In this document: in pieces, positions 20,922 through 36,058 of the stretch | Layout: each line of letters opens with the position of its first letter | How positions within the stretch are numbered: the stretch's first letter is position 1 | NCBI GenBank assembly: GCA_024275015.1 | Contig: JAJRZW010000008.1 | Coordinates: 1 to 64,000 of the forward strand | DNA length: 64,000 bases | Reading direction: 5' to 3' | Origin: Deltaproteobacteria bacterium | GTDB taxonomy: Bacteria; Desulfobacterota; Desulfobulbia; Desulfobulbales; JAJRZW01 | Notes under the pieces: generated by a model | Databases searched by the model: none | The model's input: the letters and a program-made list of their open reading frames with translations, nothing else | Told to the model about the DNA's origin: nothing | Position numbers and translations under genes: made by a program

Positions 20922-22145
20922 TTACTTGCGGCCCGCTTCCCTTGCCATCCTTTCGGCCTCGGCCTTTATTTCGACCAGGTCCTTCTTCATCTCCGCGAGA
21001 CCGTACCAGGTGACGTAGTCCGGGTTCATGTGGAAGGCCCCCTGGAAGGCGCGCATCCGGTGCTCGAGGAACATCACATACAGGGTCTGCTCGATGGGGG
21101 TCATGGCGTCGTAGAAGGTGAGTACGTCAGGATAGGCCGGTTTGCCTTCCCGGGCCTTGATGATGCCCTTACTGTAGAGATCGGCCACGATCTCAATGGC
21201 CCCGGCCATTAGCTTGTCCGCTTCCCTGATCATCATGTCGGCGTTGTGCAGGTTGGTTTTGGCGAATTTTGAGCTGTGACACCTGCTGCAGACCTTGATC
21301 ATCCGGTCGCGCTCCTTCTGCCATGACTTCCTGTCAAGCCTTGCTACCTTGCCAGCCTTGACCACGTCGAGACGGGCGGTGGGCTTGCCGTCGGGGTCAA
21401 GGACGTGCAGGGCCTTGAGAATGGTGGCGCGGTAGCCCATCCACTCCTGGTCGTCCTCTGGCAGGCGCACGGCGAGGAAACCCCAGGAGGTCGTGACGTT
21501 GTGGTTGCCGTCTTCCATGTGGCAGGTCTGGCACTTGGGGGCCCGGCCGGTGTCGCCCTCGGTCTGGTAGATGACCCCGTGTTTGGAACCGGACCACATC
21601 TCCCACTGCGGGTGGTCAAAACCCATGTGGCAGGTGCGGCAGGCCTCGGGGCGGCTGGCCTCGGCCTTGGAGAATTTGTGTCTGGTGTGGCAGGAATCGC
21701 AGGGGGAGCCGTATCCCTTGCCCTTGGTGGCGGCGTCGCGGACCCCGACCTTGTGGCAGCCGCCGCATCCTTTCAGCCCCTGGATATAGGGATGGGGCTG
21801 GATTGAGTTGGTAGGCATGGCGCTCATGGCGATCCAGGCGGCGGAGTGCTTGCCGGCCATGTACTGGTCGTGCTGCTCCTCGTGGCATTTCTGGCAGGTC
21901 TTTTCGGTGGGCAGCTCGACCTTGTCGACATCGGCCTTGCTCTTGTGGGCGCTGCCGTGGCAGTCGGCGCAGTCGACATCGCCGCTCTTACCCATGGCGC
22001 CGGAGAAAAAGTCTTTGACGATGTTGGGGGTGATTTTTTTGTGGCAGGCCACGCAGACGCTGTCTGCCGCCAGGGCCGGCGCGGCCATGAATATGAGCAG
22101 GGCCGCGCAGAGCCCCAGCGCTTTTGAGATTTTTTTCTGTTTCAT
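20922..22145 (-). CDS. octahaem c-type cytochrome, hydroxylamine oxidoreductase-like
   Basis: The 407-residue protein has a cleaved Sec signal (about 1-26, ending APALAAD) and eight CXXCH haem-binding motifs: CVACH, CADCH, CQKCH, CGGCH, CDSCH, CRTCH, CQTCH and CSRCH. Number, spacing and the tyrosine-rich C-terminal part (HMNPDYVTWYGLAEM) fit the octahaem HAO-like family. Members of this family in non-nitrifiers are thought to reduce nitrite, NO or hydroxylamine rather than oxidise hydroxylamine. Whether the P460 cross-link tyrosine is present cannot be decided by eye. ATG follows AAGGAGGG. It is the last gene of a minus-strand run with ferredoxin, haemerythrin-PAS and cupin genes. Confidence 0.85.
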   Translation of the reverse strand: MKQKKISKALGLCAALLIFMAAPALAADSVCVACHKKITPNIVKDFFSGAMGKSGDVDCADCHGSAHKSKADVDKVELPTEKTCQKCHEEQHDQYMAGKHSAAWIAMSAMPTNSIQPHPYIQGLKGCGGCHKVGVRDAATKGKGYGSPCDSCHTRHKFSKAEASRPEACRTCHMGFDHPQWEMWSGSKHGVIYQTEGDTGRAPKCQTCHMEDGNHNVTTSWGFLAVRLPEDDQEWMGYRATILKALHVLDPDGKPTARLDVVKAGKVARLDRKSWQKERDRMIKVCSRCHSSKFAKTNLHNADMMIREADKLMAGAIEIVADLYSKGIIKAREGKPAYPDVLTFYDAMTPIEQTLYVMFLEHRMRAFQGAFHMNPDYVTWYGLAEMKKDLVEIKAEAERMAREAGRK

Positions 22146-22198
22146 TCTTTTCCCTCCTTATTGACGTTGTAATAAATTCCCTGCCGTTCTTCCCGATA

Positions 22199-22352
22199 AC
22201 AGTCCGTTGAAAAACGGACTGTTATCGGGAAGGTGTCCGCGCCGTCGATTTTTTCTGGTTGAAAAATCCAATAAAATCGAGAGGTTGGGCGGAGCTTGTT
22301 TTGGTCGATCAGAGTTGAAAAAGCCATGGACGGCTTTTTTAACAGTCTGTTA
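22199..22352 (-). repeat. family A multi-hairpin repeat, copy A4 (reverse orientation)
   Basis: This copy is about 154 bp and starts ACAGTCCGTTGAAAAACGG and ends GGCTTTTTTAACAGTCTGTTAG. The central stems are partly decayed. It separates the ferredoxin gene from the cytochrome gene and could attenuate transcription between them. Confidence 0.85.
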
Positions 22353-22406
22353 GGGGATCAAAGGGATAAATCGTGTGCAGGGTGGTGTTCATGGAACACT
22401 TGCCCC

Positions 22407-22592
22407 TCATTCTCCAAGCCTGATCGCGTTTACCGGGCACATTTCCACCGCCTCGTTGATATCGCATTCGTCACATCTCTCCGGGTTCATGGCCATGGCC
22501 TTGTCGGCGACCATTTCGAAGACTTCAGGACAGATCTCAACGCATTGGCCGCAGCCTATGCATGTCTCGTCGTCAATCTCGATGTTTTTCAT
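22407..22592 (-). CDS. small 4Fe-4S ferredoxin
   Basis: The 61-residue acidic protein carries one complete cluster motif, CIGCGQC-x3-CP, near the N-terminus. A second, altered cysteine set, CDECD followed by MCPVNAI, closes the first cluster and leaves the second site incomplete, like mono-cluster ferredoxins of sulfate reducers. ATG follows GAGGAGGACAA. It begins 14 bp after the haemerythrin-PAS gene, so the two are co-transcribed. Confidence 0.88.
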   Translation of the reverse strand: MKNIEIDDETCIGCGQCVEICPEVFEMVADKAMAMNPERCDECDINEAVEMCPVNAIRLGE

Positions 22593-22606
22593 TTGTCCTC
22601 CTCGTT

Positions 22607-23566
22607 TTAGTCAAGCAGTCTTTTCTGGCCGGTGATCTTTTGAATTTCACCAATGGCCTGGGTGATCTCGAGTACCCCCATGTACTCGCCGGAGTCGTTG
22701 TAGACCGGGTAGTAGCGTATGAGGACCTTGTCGCCCATAAAGTCGATCCAGAACTCGGCTTTGTCGCGGGTTTTATCCTTGAAGCCGGTGACGATCTCGC
22801 GCACGGTGTCCACGCTCTTTTCCGGGTGGCATTTTTCCACCTTGCGGCCGATGACCGAACGGGTGCGGGGAAAGAGTTTTTCTTTATCAAGGCGGTTGAA
22901 GTAGGCCACGGTATCATCGGCGTCGACAAAGGTGACCTCGAACGGCATGGTCTCCATGATCGCCTCGATCTGCTCGTGAGAGAGGTTGTGGATCAGCCCC
23001 TTTTTATCTTTCAACACCTTTTCCACCTCGTCGACCATGGCGGCGAATTTTTCGTGGGCGGTATCGCCGTAGGCGGCCTGGTCGATGGCGTAGAAGGCAT
23101 CCCGCAGGGCCGCGGAGTCGTCGTCGCTGATAATCCGCCGGGCCATGGGGTAGAGGACGTCGTTTTCCTTCCATATATGCTCGGCCCGGACCTCAAGGTA
23201 TTTGATGCCGTCGTCACGGTACGCGGAGAGTTCGCCGAGGTCCATGTCCTTTAATTTGCCGGCGGTGGCGACCATCCGGGTCAGAAGTTCGCGTTCCATT
23301 TCATGCTCCATGAGCATCACCCCGATGGGGCCGCCGTCCACCGGCACCCCTCGTTCCTGCATCAGGGGGAAGAGGTGTTTTTCCTCCTTCCGGTTATGGA
23401 TTTTGTCGCCGAACTCAAGGAGGAAATCCAGGGCCCGGACTGTCTGCACCGGGTTTTTCGCGGTTGCGTCCATGTCTTCAAGACATTGTTTAAGGACCGC
23501 CATCGCCCGTTCAATCATCTCGTGTTCGGCGATGAGGTATTCGTCCCAGCGTTGATATTTTTTCAT
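22607..23566 (-). CDS. haemerythrin-PAS protein
   Basis: In the 319-residue cytoplasmic protein, residues 1-160 form a haemerythrin (HHE) four-helix bundle with iron-ligand motifs AEHEMIE, KIHNRKEEKHLFP, LMEHEMERELL and AEHIWKENDVLYP. From about 200 a PAS domain follows (AIMETMPFEVTFVDADDTV ... GVLEITQAIGEI). Such proteins in anaerobes sense or bind O2 or NO through the di-iron site. There is no output domain, so it may act by protein contact or as a scavenger. ATG follows AGAGGAG. It lies between cupin and ferredoxin genes on the same strand. Confidence 0.87.
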   Translation of the reverse strand: MKKYQRWDEYLIAEHEMIERAMAVLKQCLEDMDATAKNPVQTVRALDFLLEFGDKIHNRKEEKHLFPLMQERGVPVDGGPIGVMLMEHEMERELLTRMVATAGKLKDMDLGELSAYRDDGIKYLEVRAEHIWKENDVLYPMARRIISDDDSAALRDAFYAIDQAAYGDTAHEKFAAMVDEVEKVLKDKKGLIHNLSHEQIEAIMETMPFEVTFVDADDTVAYFNRLDKEKLFPRTRSVIGRKVEKCHPEKSVDTVREIVTGFKDKTRDKAEFWIDFMGDKVLIRYYPVYNDSGEYMGVLEITQAIGEIQKITGQKRLLD

Positions 23567-23643
23567 GGTTTTCTCCTCTTTTTCAGATTTACAGGAAACG
23601 GTTTGATTTTTTTCAAGGGTGGAGCTGTTCCGTGGGGCCGGGG

Positions 23644-23961
23644 TCAGATGGGCGGGGCGATGGTCACCACCACCCGCATTTCCGTTATCGCTTTGATCCC
23701 ATGCTTTTCGGCGATGTCCGAGATCAGGATGTCGCCTGATTTCGCCGGCATGGTTTTTCCCTCGGCGGCGAGGAACTCACCCTCACCGCTGATCACGGTG
23801 ATTGACAGCTGCCCCTCCAATTGGTGTGAATGGATCGGCAGGGTCTGGCCGGCGCGGAAATTGAAGTTGATGAGTTTGAAGAACTCGGATTCATGGAGAA
23901 CAAAGAGTTTTGGCGCGTTGTCGTTGAACTCAGCGGTCTGGTCAAGGGCTATTTTTTTCAT
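23644..23961 (-). CDS. small cupin-domain protein
   Basis: The 105-residue single-domain cupin has a histidine-containing motif LPIHSHQLEGQLSITVISGE (metal ligands) and the second strand block GDILISDIAEKHGIKA. Small cupins of this type bind metals or small ligands; the exact role is unknown. ATG follows AAAGGAGGCACC. It starts 87 bp after the MFS gene and 78 bp before the haemerythrin-PAS gene. Confidence 0.83.
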   Translation of the reverse strand: MKKIALDQTAEFNDNAPKLFVLHESEFFKLINFNFRAGQTLPIHSHQLEGQLSITVISGEGEFLAAEGKTMPAKSGDILISDIAEKHGIKAITEMRVVVTIAPPI

Positions 23962-24047
23962 GATGGTGCCTCCTTTTTTAAAAGAGTATCACATAAAAGC
24001 GGCAACAGTGATTTGACTGAAGTCAAGGGATGGGGAAAAAAGAGGAA

Positions 24048-25307
24048 TCATGCTTTTTTCCGCGTTTTTTTTAAGTAAAAAAACCAGGCAAATCCGGGGA
24101 GGATGAAGACCGTCGCCAATACCGCGGCCACGGTGCGAGGATTCGTGCCTGAGTCGATGGCGGCGCCGGTGAACCAGGTGGAGATGGAAAGGATCAGGGT
24201 GAGTAACCCCATCTCGGCGGCGAATATCCGGCCGCGGAACTCGTCGGCCACGCTTTTTTGCAGGAGGTTGGTGGAAAAGACCCACTGAATCGAGCCGCCG
24301 ATGTGGCCGATCAGGACAAACCACACCGCGATCCAGATCGAAGGGGAGACACTGAAGGCCAGGTAGGCCGCGCTTGAGATGAAGAAGGCGGCAACAATGG
24401 CCCGGTACATGCTGTCCCGGTCCTCGCCCAGAATCCGCCATGCCAGGATTGGACCCACCGCGGCGCCGAGGCCGCGAAAGCTGTAGAGCAGCCCCGAACC
24501 TCCACCTGGTCCAATGGTGGGAAAGACATGCTCACCGAACCAGGTGAGGAGGATGAGGATACCGCCGGAGATGGCCCAGCCGCTTTTTACCAGCAGCAGG
24601 GCCGCAACTTCCCGCTCTTTTTTCAGATAGACCAGGCACTCTGCAAGGTCGCGCAGGCCCAGGGCTTGGGCCAGACCGTTGCCGCGACAGTTTGATCCGG
24701 CCGGGCTTTTAATCCTCAGTCCGGCAATCATTGCCGCTGAGACCACAAAGGTGGCGGCGTCGATGATGATCGCGGTGCGCCAGCCGAAAAAGGCGGTTAT
24801 CATTCCCCCGGCGGCGGCGCCGAGGGCCAGCATTATCGACCAGGTGGCACCACTCATGGCGTTGGCCAGGTTAAGTTCCTCCGGCCGGCAGATGTTGGGG
24901 ATCGAGGCGCGGCGGGCCGGGTCATAAAAGGTCCATACCGACTCCTGGGTCAGGGCGAGGAGGTACACCAGCCAGCGGCGTTCCGGCCTCGCGGCGAAAA
25001 GAAAGCCCAGCACAATGAATACCCGCGCCAGGTCGGAGAAGATCATGATTTTTCTGCGGTCGTAACGGTCGACTATCACCCCGGCCACGGGGCCGAAGAT
25101 GGTCGAGGGGATGAATTTGGCGATTAGAAACCAGCCCACCGCCTTGCCGCCGCCCTGACTGCCAATGAGTACGAAGATGGCGATATAGTTGAACCAGTTT
25201 CCCGTCTGACTTATGACCCCGGCAAGCCAGAATCGCCGCCAGGCGGGGTTTGATCGGAGGAAGTGGAGATATGATCCGGGACGGGATACCGGCAGGGGAT
25301 CGGTCAT
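24048..25307 (-). CDS. MFS exporter (MFS_3/EntS-like)
   Basis: The 419-residue polytopic protein has about 12 helices. It opens with RRFWLAGVISQTGNWFNYIA and has the cytoplasmic loop VIVDRYDRRKIMI, a form of the MFS motif A, as in EntS-type siderophore or drug exporters. The start was set to ATG 25307 because the frame upstream is repeat DNA (family B copy B3). It may lead the minus-strand run that ends in the octahaem cytochrome, but no substrate can be inferred. Confidence 0.85.
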   Translation of the reverse strand: MTDPLPVSRPGSYLHFLRSNPAWRRFWLAGVISQTGNWFNYIAIFVLIGSQGGGKAVGWFLIAKFIPSTIFGPVAGVIVDRYDRRKIMIFSDLARVFIVLGFLFAARPERRWLVYLLALTQESVWTFYDPARRASIPNICRPEELNLANAMSGATWSIMLALGAAAGGMITAFFGWRTAIIIDAATFVVSAAMIAGLRIKSPAGSNCRGNGLAQALGLRDLAECLVYLKKEREVAALLLVKSGWAISGGILILLTWFGEHVFPTIGPGGGSGLLYSFRGLGAAVGPILAWRILGEDRDSMYRAIVAAFFISSAAYLAFSVSPSIWIAVWFVLIGHIGGSIQWVFSTNLLQKSVADEFRGRIFAAEMGLLTLILSISTWFTGAAIDSGTNPRTVAAVLATVFILPGFAWFFYLKKTRKKA

Positions 25308-34248: not shown

Positions 34249-34373
34249 CTTGTTAACTTCCTGTAATGGCGTATAAACCGGACTTGTAGTTTTTTATGTG
34301 GATAAAGATATAAAGGCGCTTGGTTTGCAAAATGTTGCTATGGTGTTAATTATGTTAATTAACGGTTAACAAG
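34249..34373. promoter_or_regulatory. candidate activator-binding sites (inverted CTTGTTAAC pair)
   Basis: CTTGTTAAC at 34249-34257 and its exact reverse complement GTTAACAAG at 34365-34373 lie upstream of the sigma-54 promoter. TTAAT-rich sequence between them (34345-34362) includes GTTAATTATGTTAATTAAC. The distal site is about 140 bp from the -24 box, the usual distance for a sigma-54 enhancer. It also sits just before the activator gene, suggesting autoregulation. The site assignment is inferred. Confidence 0.4.
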
Positions 34374-34393
34374 TAGTTGGCGGGGTATATGTC

Positions 34394-35737
34394 ATGCCGT
34401 TTTCGTTGGATACAAATGTCTGGAAGATAATCGTTAACACCATGCAAGAAGGCTTGATGGTGGTTGACAAGGAAGGCCAAATCGTTTTTGCCAATAAGGC
34501 ATTTGAGGAATTGTTTGGCTACACCAACGCCGAGCTTGCCGGTAAGAGTTGTGATGTGTTTCAGTGTGACCGCTGTTTTTCGGCCCGGGCCAGCGGCCTG
34601 GATAAATACTGCGCACTTTTTAAGGATGAAGAGATAAGGAGTTCTGAATGTGTCTTTCGTCGTAAGGACGCTACCCCTCTGCATGTTTTAAAGAATGCCG
34701 CCGTTATCCGTGACGCCGAAGGTCAGGTGATCGGCGGGGTGGAAACCCTTACGGATTTAAGTCGGGTGCTGGCTGGAGAGGAGATAATCGCCTCCCTTAA
34801 AGAAGAATTACAGGCCAGCCGCAAGGATTTTGGTGATATTGTCGGGCGATCCGAGGCCATGCGGCAGGTATTTGATCTGGCCGCCAGTGCTGCATCCTCC
34901 GAGGCGCCGGTGGTGGTTTACGGTGAATCCGGGACAGGAAAGGAACTCCTGGCCCATGCCCTGCATCGGCAAAGCGGTCGGCAGGCGGGGCCATTTATCA
35001 AGGTTAATTGCGCCGCCCTAAATGAGAATCTTCTGGAAAGTGAACTCTTTGGGCATGTAAAGGGGGCCTTTACCGGCGCCGACCAGCAACGGATTGGCCG
35101 CTTTGAGGCGGCCAATCGCGGCAGTATTTTTCTCGACGAGATTGGCGATCTACCCTTGACCACCCAGACCAAATTATTACGGGTTTTGCAGGAAAAGGAG
35201 ATTGAGCGGGTTGGGGATAATCGCACCATTGAGATAGATGTGCGGATCATTACCGCGACCCACAAGGATCTGGTGGAATTGATTGGCCAGGGCCAGTTTC
35301 GGGAGGATCTTTTTTATCGTATAAATGTAATACCCATTAACCTGCCGCCCCTGCGCCGGCGCCAGGCTGATATCCCACTGCTGGTGGAAAAATTTATCAA
35401 GGTTGTGGCGGGTAAATCTGGCAAGAATATTAGCGGTATCAGTGACGCCGCCCTGGATATAATGATCAATTACCCTTGGCCGGGTAATGTCCGGGAGTTG
35501 ATTAATGCCATCGAATATGCCTTTGTGGTCTGCCCGCGTGGCCGGGTCAAGGTCGAGCACCTTCCCCAGCATTTGTGTACTGCCCAGGTTGCCCGTGGCA
35601 ATCCCGTGTCCAGCGGTCGTAGGGCCAGGGTGCGCCAAGCCTTGGAGGAATCCGGTTGGAACCGTACTAAGGCCGCCGCTGTTCTGGGGGTGAGTCGGGT
35701 TACTTTATGGAAATGGATGAAGAAGTATTCCCTGTGA
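34394..35737 (+). CDS. PAS-domain sigma-54-dependent transcriptional activator
   Basis: The 447-residue protein has an N-terminal PAS domain (about 10-115) that carries an unusual cysteine set: CDVFQCDRC, a Cys about 17 residues later, and one more. These look able to hold an Fe-S cluster, haem or other metal. The AAA+ domain (about 150-380) has GESGTGKE, intact GAFTGA and FLDEIGDL. A Fis-type helix-turn-helix ends the protein (RTKAAAVLGVSRVTLWKW). It lacks a receiver domain, so the PAS domain is the input. It is divergent from the DUF302 cassette and separated by a sigma-54 promoter it presumably controls. Confidence 0.9.
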   Translation: MPFSLDTNVWKIIVNTMQEGLMVVDKEGQIVFANKAFEELFGYTNAELAGKSCDVFQCDRCFSARASGLDKYCALFKDEEIRSSECVFRRKDATPLHVLKNAAVIRDAEGQVIGGVETLTDLSRVLAGEEIIASLKEELQASRKDFGDIVGRSEAMRQVFDLAASAASSEAPVVVYGESGTGKELLAHALHRQSGRQAGPFIKVNCAALNENLLESELFGHVKGAFTGADQQRIGRFEAANRGSIFLDEIGDLPLTTQTKLLRVLQEKEIERVGDNRTIEIDVRIITATHKDLVELIGQGQFREDLFYRINVIPINLPPLRRRQADIPLLVEKFIKVVAGKSGKNISGISDAALDIMINYPWPGNVRELINAIEYAFVVCPRGRVKVEHLPQHLCTAQVARGNPVSSGRRARVRQALEESGWNRTKAAAVLGVSRVTLWKWMKKYSL

Positions 35738-35867
35738 CGCTGGTGGGTAAATAGTTTTGCCGGCGCTCAGCCTGAAACCGAATCGTTCCGGGAACGTCGT
35801 GAATATTTCATGGTTTTGATCTTTGCCTCCGAATACGGGTTGCCATTGCTGGCTATGGCCTTGTAAT

Positions 35868-36058
35868 GACGAAGTCGTAACAAGTCCCTGCTTCGGTTGA
35901 AAACGGCGATTTTCGGGCACCGGGCAAGGGGCTGCTGGAATCCTGAACTCGGGCTATGTCATCAAATATGCGGGATTTCTTGCCCCATTCCACCGCCCGG
36001 CGCTTTTTTCGAGAAATAGCCGAAGACGCCTCCGCGGGGACTTGTTACGAAGACCATC
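35868..36058. repeat. family B MITE-like element, copy B7
   Basis: This 191-bp full copy has GACGAAGTCGTAACAAGTCC on the left and GGGGACTTGTTACGAAGACC followed by ATC on the right, with strong internal arms. Flanks are only weakly similar. Confidence 0.85.

Follow-up and report, generated by a model that had tools for sequence, protein, structure and literature searches.

We identified five genes on the minus strand of the window, i.e., the entire stretch of 64,000 nucleotides analyzed here, that encode an MFS transporter, a small cupin, a haemerythrin-PAS protein, a ferredoxin, and an octahaem HAO-like cytochrome c (Table 1). ORF coordinates, Pfam matches, and the eight CXXCH motifs agree with an earlier note on this sequence, which had placed the cytochrome behind the haemerythrin-PAS gene in a run of five same-strand genes with short gaps except at repeat A4: the gaps measure 14 bp (ferredoxin/haemerythrin-PAS), 77 bp (haemerythrin-PAS/cupin), and 86 bp (cupin/MFS) versus 261 bp before the cytochrome. 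The inclusion of the MFS gene in that run did not hold. Because an HcpR-like site lies between the MFS and cupin genes, i.e., downstream of the MFS gene, and because the MFS gene accompanies the other genes within the same genus only, we rejected it as a member, and the unit comprises four genes rather than five.

Table 1. Features of the cupin/haemerythrin-PAS/ferredoxin/cytochrome locus, in window coordinates
Feature	Position	Strand	Description
Octahaem HAO-like cytochrome c	20922-22145	-	407 aa, Sec signal peptide, eight CXXCH, Pfam PF13447 (99 bits)
Gap 5' of the cytochrome gene, with dispersed repeat A4 (about 22200-22355)	22146-22406	-	261 bp, strong hairpin
Small 4Fe-4S ferredoxin	22407-22592	-	61 aa, Fer4_13
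Haemerythrin-PAS protein	22607-23566	-	319 aa; haemerythrin PF01814 (9-142) and PAS_10 PF13596 (201-305)
Small cupin	23644-23961	-	105 aa, PF07883; HxH and later His
Palindrome TTGACTTCAGTCAA, predicted HcpR/FNR-type operator	24013-24026		-65 to -52 relative to the cupin start
MFS transporter	24048-25307 (or to 25454, depending on the start codon)	-	PF07690; adjoins the unit, judged a non-member

The palindrome located 65 bp before the cupin start matches TTGACnnnnGTCAA, the published operator of HcpR, which responds to NO and regulates hybrid cluster protein (Hcp); Rodionov and colleagues give the HcpR site in Desulfotalea, Desulfuromonas, and Geobacter as wyTTGACnnnnGTCAArw (PMC1274295; PMC545781). 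The strict motif occurs twice in the 2.45-Mb genome, and the other copy is inside the coding sequence of ppdK. The looser pattern TTGAY-N4-RTCAA occurs 11 times, with nine copies in open frames (one, near a contig end, less certain). Based on ORF inspection, two of these looser sites are clearly intergenic, i.e., the one before the window operon and one 283 bp upstream of the only hcp gene in the genome (C4:9284-10894). A second Prismane-family match (on contig C64) was rejected as an hcp gene: judged by its sequence, it encodes the catalytic subunit of a CO dehydrogenase, and the strict motif that precedes it is the copy inside ppdK. Two features expected of a member of the HcpR regulon are present, i.e., an upstream operator of the TTGACnnnnGTCAA type and the sharing of this operator type with hcp in the same genome. 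A sigma-70 promoter scan gave nothing above chance.

The association of the motif with these genes extends to other genomes. Among loci for cytochromes with at least 70% identity, 13 of 15 have the motif in the 250 bp preceding the cytochrome gene, as do 12 of 76 more distant loci, while the remaining 64 distant relatives lack it; the background is 14 sites in 1.19 Mb, corresponding to 0.003 per 250-bp region. In the Geomonas orthologues (L106 and L108-L110), the distance from the site to the gene is 75-76 bp. Similarly, of 29 haemerythrin-PAS genes, 25 have the motif in the 600 bp before them. In 12 genomes, the strict motif precedes 6 of 11 cytochrome genes, against an expectation of 0.005, and 6 of 31 Prismane-family genes, against 0.013; the latter 31 genes include CODH-type genes, and each of the six with the motif is an hcp-type frame of ~550 aa. 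In the P values for the operator, each locus counts as independent irrespective of common descent, but the loci come from several families and differ in their spacer bases. We note that a strict HcpR-like site also precedes, by ~200 bp, the match to a different HAO-like cytochrome in G036 (G036:C5:59106, upstream of 59319).

We compared the gene neighborhood in 243 genomes of the order. The order cupin, haemerythrin-PAS, ferredoxin, cytochrome is found in the window genome and in a relative from the same genus (G001). In G010, the order is cytochrome, haemerythrin-PAS, ferredoxin, cupin, and G040 has ferredoxin and cupin genes followed by hcp, haemerythrin-PAS, and a cytochrome 46% identical to that of the window, with a site ~280 bp upstream of hcp. 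The haemerythrin-PAS and cytochrome genes are adjacent on their own in two genomes (G036 and G199), and a dozen or so further genomes have cupin/haemerythrin-PAS or ferredoxin/haemerythrin-PAS pairs. At locus L118, a strict site is followed by hcp, a small gene, ferredoxin, and cytochrome, of which the first three match the hcp operon of the window genome itself. Relatives of the cytochrome gene are also linked to nrfHA, as the series site, cytochrome, hcp, nrfH, nrfA in Geobacter UBA6802 (L121) and as cytochrome, nrfH, nrfA at L073. The earlier note had named the absence of a conserved gene order as a finding that would speak against a module; clustering is conserved across families, while a fixed order is not. 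A neighborhood that is kept while its order is shuffled argues more strongly for a functional link than a single frozen operon does. Together with the operator data, there is strong evidence that the four genes belong to an HcpR-type regulon.

Repeat A4 belongs to a dispersed repeat of ~155 bp, which has at least 40 copies in the genome and contains a 20-bp perfect hairpin. The gap that it occupies (22146-22406) contains no HcpR-like site, while in G001 such a site is located before the cytochrome gene, just after the ferredoxin gene, in the place taken by A4 in the window. No terminator was called in A4, in which the strong hairpin lacks a T-run. Because the cytochrome gene has no HcpR-like site of its own and the repeat lies in the gap, its expression would have to come from read-through from the cupin promoter across this hairpin or from another, unseen promoter.

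The cytochrome has the characteristics of the octahaem HAO family, i.e., eight CXXCH motifs, the HAO fold, and an Asp-His pair (Asp177-His178) at the distal catalytic position. In a sequence search, all matches with solved structures were HAO family proteins, the best being the reducing HAO of K. stuttgartiensis (KsHAOr, 6h5l). An AlphaFold model of moderate quality (pLDDT 74, with residues 113-158 poor) gave 11 fold matches to the HAO family with E values of 1e-11 to 2e-8, and the closest was again KsHAOr. By contrast, NrfA and ONR were not supported as relatives: PF02335 gave no match, and the fold matches were not significant (E value of 0.55 for the best ONR match). KsHAOr (Kustc0457/0458), a reductive HAO without a tyrosine cross-link, resembles the window protein in its eight haems, its Asp-His pair, and a cross-link column that is not occupied by Tyr; it differs in that the identity in the fold match is 26%, the window protein is shorter and belongs to another clade, and the context is one of stress genes as opposed to anammox.

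The earlier note had proposed a phylogeny of the cytochrome and a test for the cross-link tyrosine. In the tree, the window cytochrome falls into a 16-row clade (support 100/99) with proteins of Geomonas, Geomesophilobacter, and Desulfobacterota MAGs, and an HcpR-like site is present for 13 members of this clade. The HAO, HOX, and KsHAOr references and a napA-linked cytochrome lie outside on long branches; since the placement of the PDB references, which have long branches and partial sequences from HMMER alignments, is unsure, we used the window clade alone. Oxidative HAO/HDH enzymes are marked by a Tyr cross-linked to haem 4 of the neighboring subunit (P460). The column of N. europaea Tyr467 is occupied by Thr379 in the MAFFT alignment, or by Trp380 if the alignment is ungapped after the conserved Asn-Pro; Tyr377 and Tyr381 are nearby, which makes this assignment provisional. 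Because neither Thr379 nor Trp380 is Tyr, an oxidative P460 form is not predicted; the absence of this Tyr has been taken as a mark of reductive HAO-type enzymes (PMC12758564; PMC8940962). We infer that the cytochrome may reduce NO, hydroxylamine, and/or nitrite. Epsilon-HAO enzymes are recognized by Trp in place of the Tyr together with Met eight residues earlier (PMC8940962). The window protein resembles these and napA-linked HAO-like cytochromes (Nautilia and Campylobacter type) in having Trp at the Tyr position or beside it, and Trp380 is present in all 24 alignment rows, yet it has His372 at the Met position and neither an adjoining NapC/NrfH-type partner nor a nap linkage. Four f12 relatives (L074, L080, L081, and L082), one of which is linked to hcp and haemerythrin-PAS, have Tyr (DYAYW) at the MAFFT column of Tyr467, possibly through independent gain of the cross-link residue; for this reason, the direction of the reaction may vary within the family.

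In the haemerythrin-PAS protein, the invariant residues His15, His57, Glu61, His88, His130, and Glu134 fit di-iron ligands. The protein resembles YtfE/RIC and the Desulfovibrio proteins Ddes_1165 and DVU2590, which are induced by NO or nitrite, in combining such a haemerythrin with PAS; it differs from YtfE/RIC in scoring far below the NCBIfam cut-off for this family (TIGR03652, 26.8 versus 204.7 bits). The HxH motif and later His of the cupin would suit metal binding, and the cupin gene adjoins hcp in 5 and ferredoxin in 13 of 29 Desulfobacterota loci. In D. desulfuricans, NO induces a cupin gene (Ddes_1828, 4.4), which may or may not be an orthologue of the window cupin gene, hcp (3.17), and the haemerythrin-PAS gene Ddes_1165 (1.98); in D. 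vulgaris, the homologue DVU2590 reacted to nitrite and not to oxidative stress (PMC5701242).

The assembly encodes two CRP/FNR-type regulators. One (G000:C54; L101 2810-3493) has the recognition helix IPETLSR with Pro at the position of Arg180 in CRP, and it has a single cysteine and no Cys cluster; the other has a CRP-like SREMISR helix. Replacement of Arg180 by Pro is reported for HcpR of Desulfotalea and Desulfuromonas (PMC545781), and the C54 protein is the best candidate for an HcpR-type regulator of the unit. In two distant relatives, a gene for a CRP/FNR-family regulator adjoins the cytochrome gene on the same strand (L171:2683-4551 and L174:8001-9962).

Based on these data, the cupin, haemerythrin-PAS, ferredoxin, and cytochrome genes probably form an HcpR-type nitrosative-stress unit in which a periplasmic cytochrome would reduce NO, hydroxylamine, or nitrite. 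Here, a CRP/FNR-family regulator, with the C54 protein as the candidate, would sense NO, bind TTGACTTCAGTCAA, and activate the unit and hcp alike. Binding or reduction of NO and repair of Fe-S centers in the cytoplasm would fall to the haemerythrin-PAS protein with its di-iron site (YtfE/RIC-like), to the ferredoxin, and to Hcp, which is encoded elsewhere. In the periplasm, the octahaem cytochrome would reduce its substrate at a catalytic haem without the tyrosine cross-link. In this scheme, the gene content, the operator and its rarity, the conserved linkage, the fold family, and the missing cross-link Tyr are computational results, and we infer the identity and ligand of the regulator, the substrate and direction of the cytochrome, its electron donor, and the role of the cupin; no gene for a quinol-linked donor adjoins the cytochrome gene. 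Of the two functions put forward in the earlier note, the nitrosative-stress module is well supported by the HcpR-type operator, the linkage to hcp and nrfHA, and the published NO induction in Desulfovibrio; nitrite ammonification by the unit was not borne out, and the likelier route for nitrate and nitrite is a different octahaem cytochrome. This second HAO-like protein (L103:6258-7931; G000:C1, about 34257-35930) has 557 aa and IhOCC (4qo5) as the nearest structure, and its gene is directly downstream of napA. It may be the nitrite reductase of the genome because we detected no convincing NrfA there; a weak 22.6-bit match, the sole candidate, lies inside an 8-haem frame and was rejected.

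A respiratory role of the window cytochrome as an ammonifying nitrite reductase, with the stress genes as mere neighbors, would fit the operons that its relatives form with nrfHA, the failure to find NrfA in the window genome, and the nitrite reduction by reductive HAO-like enzymes such as KsHAOr (cited in PMC12758564). We consider it improbable: the napA-linked cytochrome is at hand, close orthologues are preceded by HcpR-like sites and, in several genomes, adjoin haemerythrin-PAS rather than nap, and where the operon itself holds nrfHA, simple respiration of nitrite would not require the cytochrome. We give marginally less weight to a microaerobic stress unit controlled by an FNR-type regulator, with an O2-binding haemerythrin and the cytochrome as a periplasmic electron sink. 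The FNR consensus reads TTGAT-N4-ATCAA, O2 is a ligand of haemerythrins, and the motif here, which is also a general FNR/DNR-type pattern, is by sequence compatible with O2 control. Against this, the sole FNR-like regulator found in the genome lacks an FNR 4Fe-4S site because it has a single cysteine, and it has the Pro reported for HcpR of Desulfotalea and Desulfuromonas (PMC545781); moreover, the sites co-occur with hcp and nrfHA, and DVU2590 did not respond to oxidative stress (PMC5701242). Finally, the length of 407 aa, compared with about 500-570 for classic HAO, could point to a protein that lacks N-oxide catalysis and serves only in electron transfer or storage, which is very unlikely given that the eight haem motifs and the HAO Asp-His pair are invariant over 24 relatives.

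In the available text of the regulon studies, the HcpR regulon of delta-proteobacteria includes hcp, the ferredoxin gene frdX, and, in Desulfuromonas, one unnamed "cytochrome c (heme-binding protein)" whose gene, beside frdX1, carries a site (Rodionov 2004, PMC545781; 2005, PMC1274295). The window unit shares with it the palindrome and the hcp and ferredoxin members; it differs in that this text neither identifies the published cytochrome as octahaem HAO-like nor contains a cupin/haemerythrin-PAS/ferredoxin/cytochrome cluster, and among the members described in the HcpR literature as available, we found neither the octahaem HAO-like clade nor the four-gene unit. The earlier view that this is not known as a described unit holds, within that literature, for the four genes and for the membership of the octahaem clade and falls for the HcpR regulon itself, which was described in 2004-2005.

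Octahaem cytochromes of the reductive HAO-like type are widespread among anaerobes, and their role beyond nitrifiers and anammox bacteria is largely guesswork. We regard it as an evenly balanced proposition that, within the HcpR response, periplasmic reduction of NO/hydroxylamine is the task of the cross-link-free clade of Geomonas, Geomesophilobacter, and Desulfobacterota MAGs, with Hcp, haemerythrin-PAS, and ferredoxin inside the cell, giving a two-compartment NO defense. As one clade is tied to an NO regulon by the operator and by linkage to hcp and nrfHA, the guess becomes testable in culturable Geomonas strains. A lead to function is also gained for the small cupin and haemerythrin-PAS families. 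In the PAS_10 domain of the window haemerythrin-PAS protein, an invariant Cys-His-Pro triplet (C246-H247-P248), shared with the solved homologue PF0695 (3cax), is a possible cofactor site.
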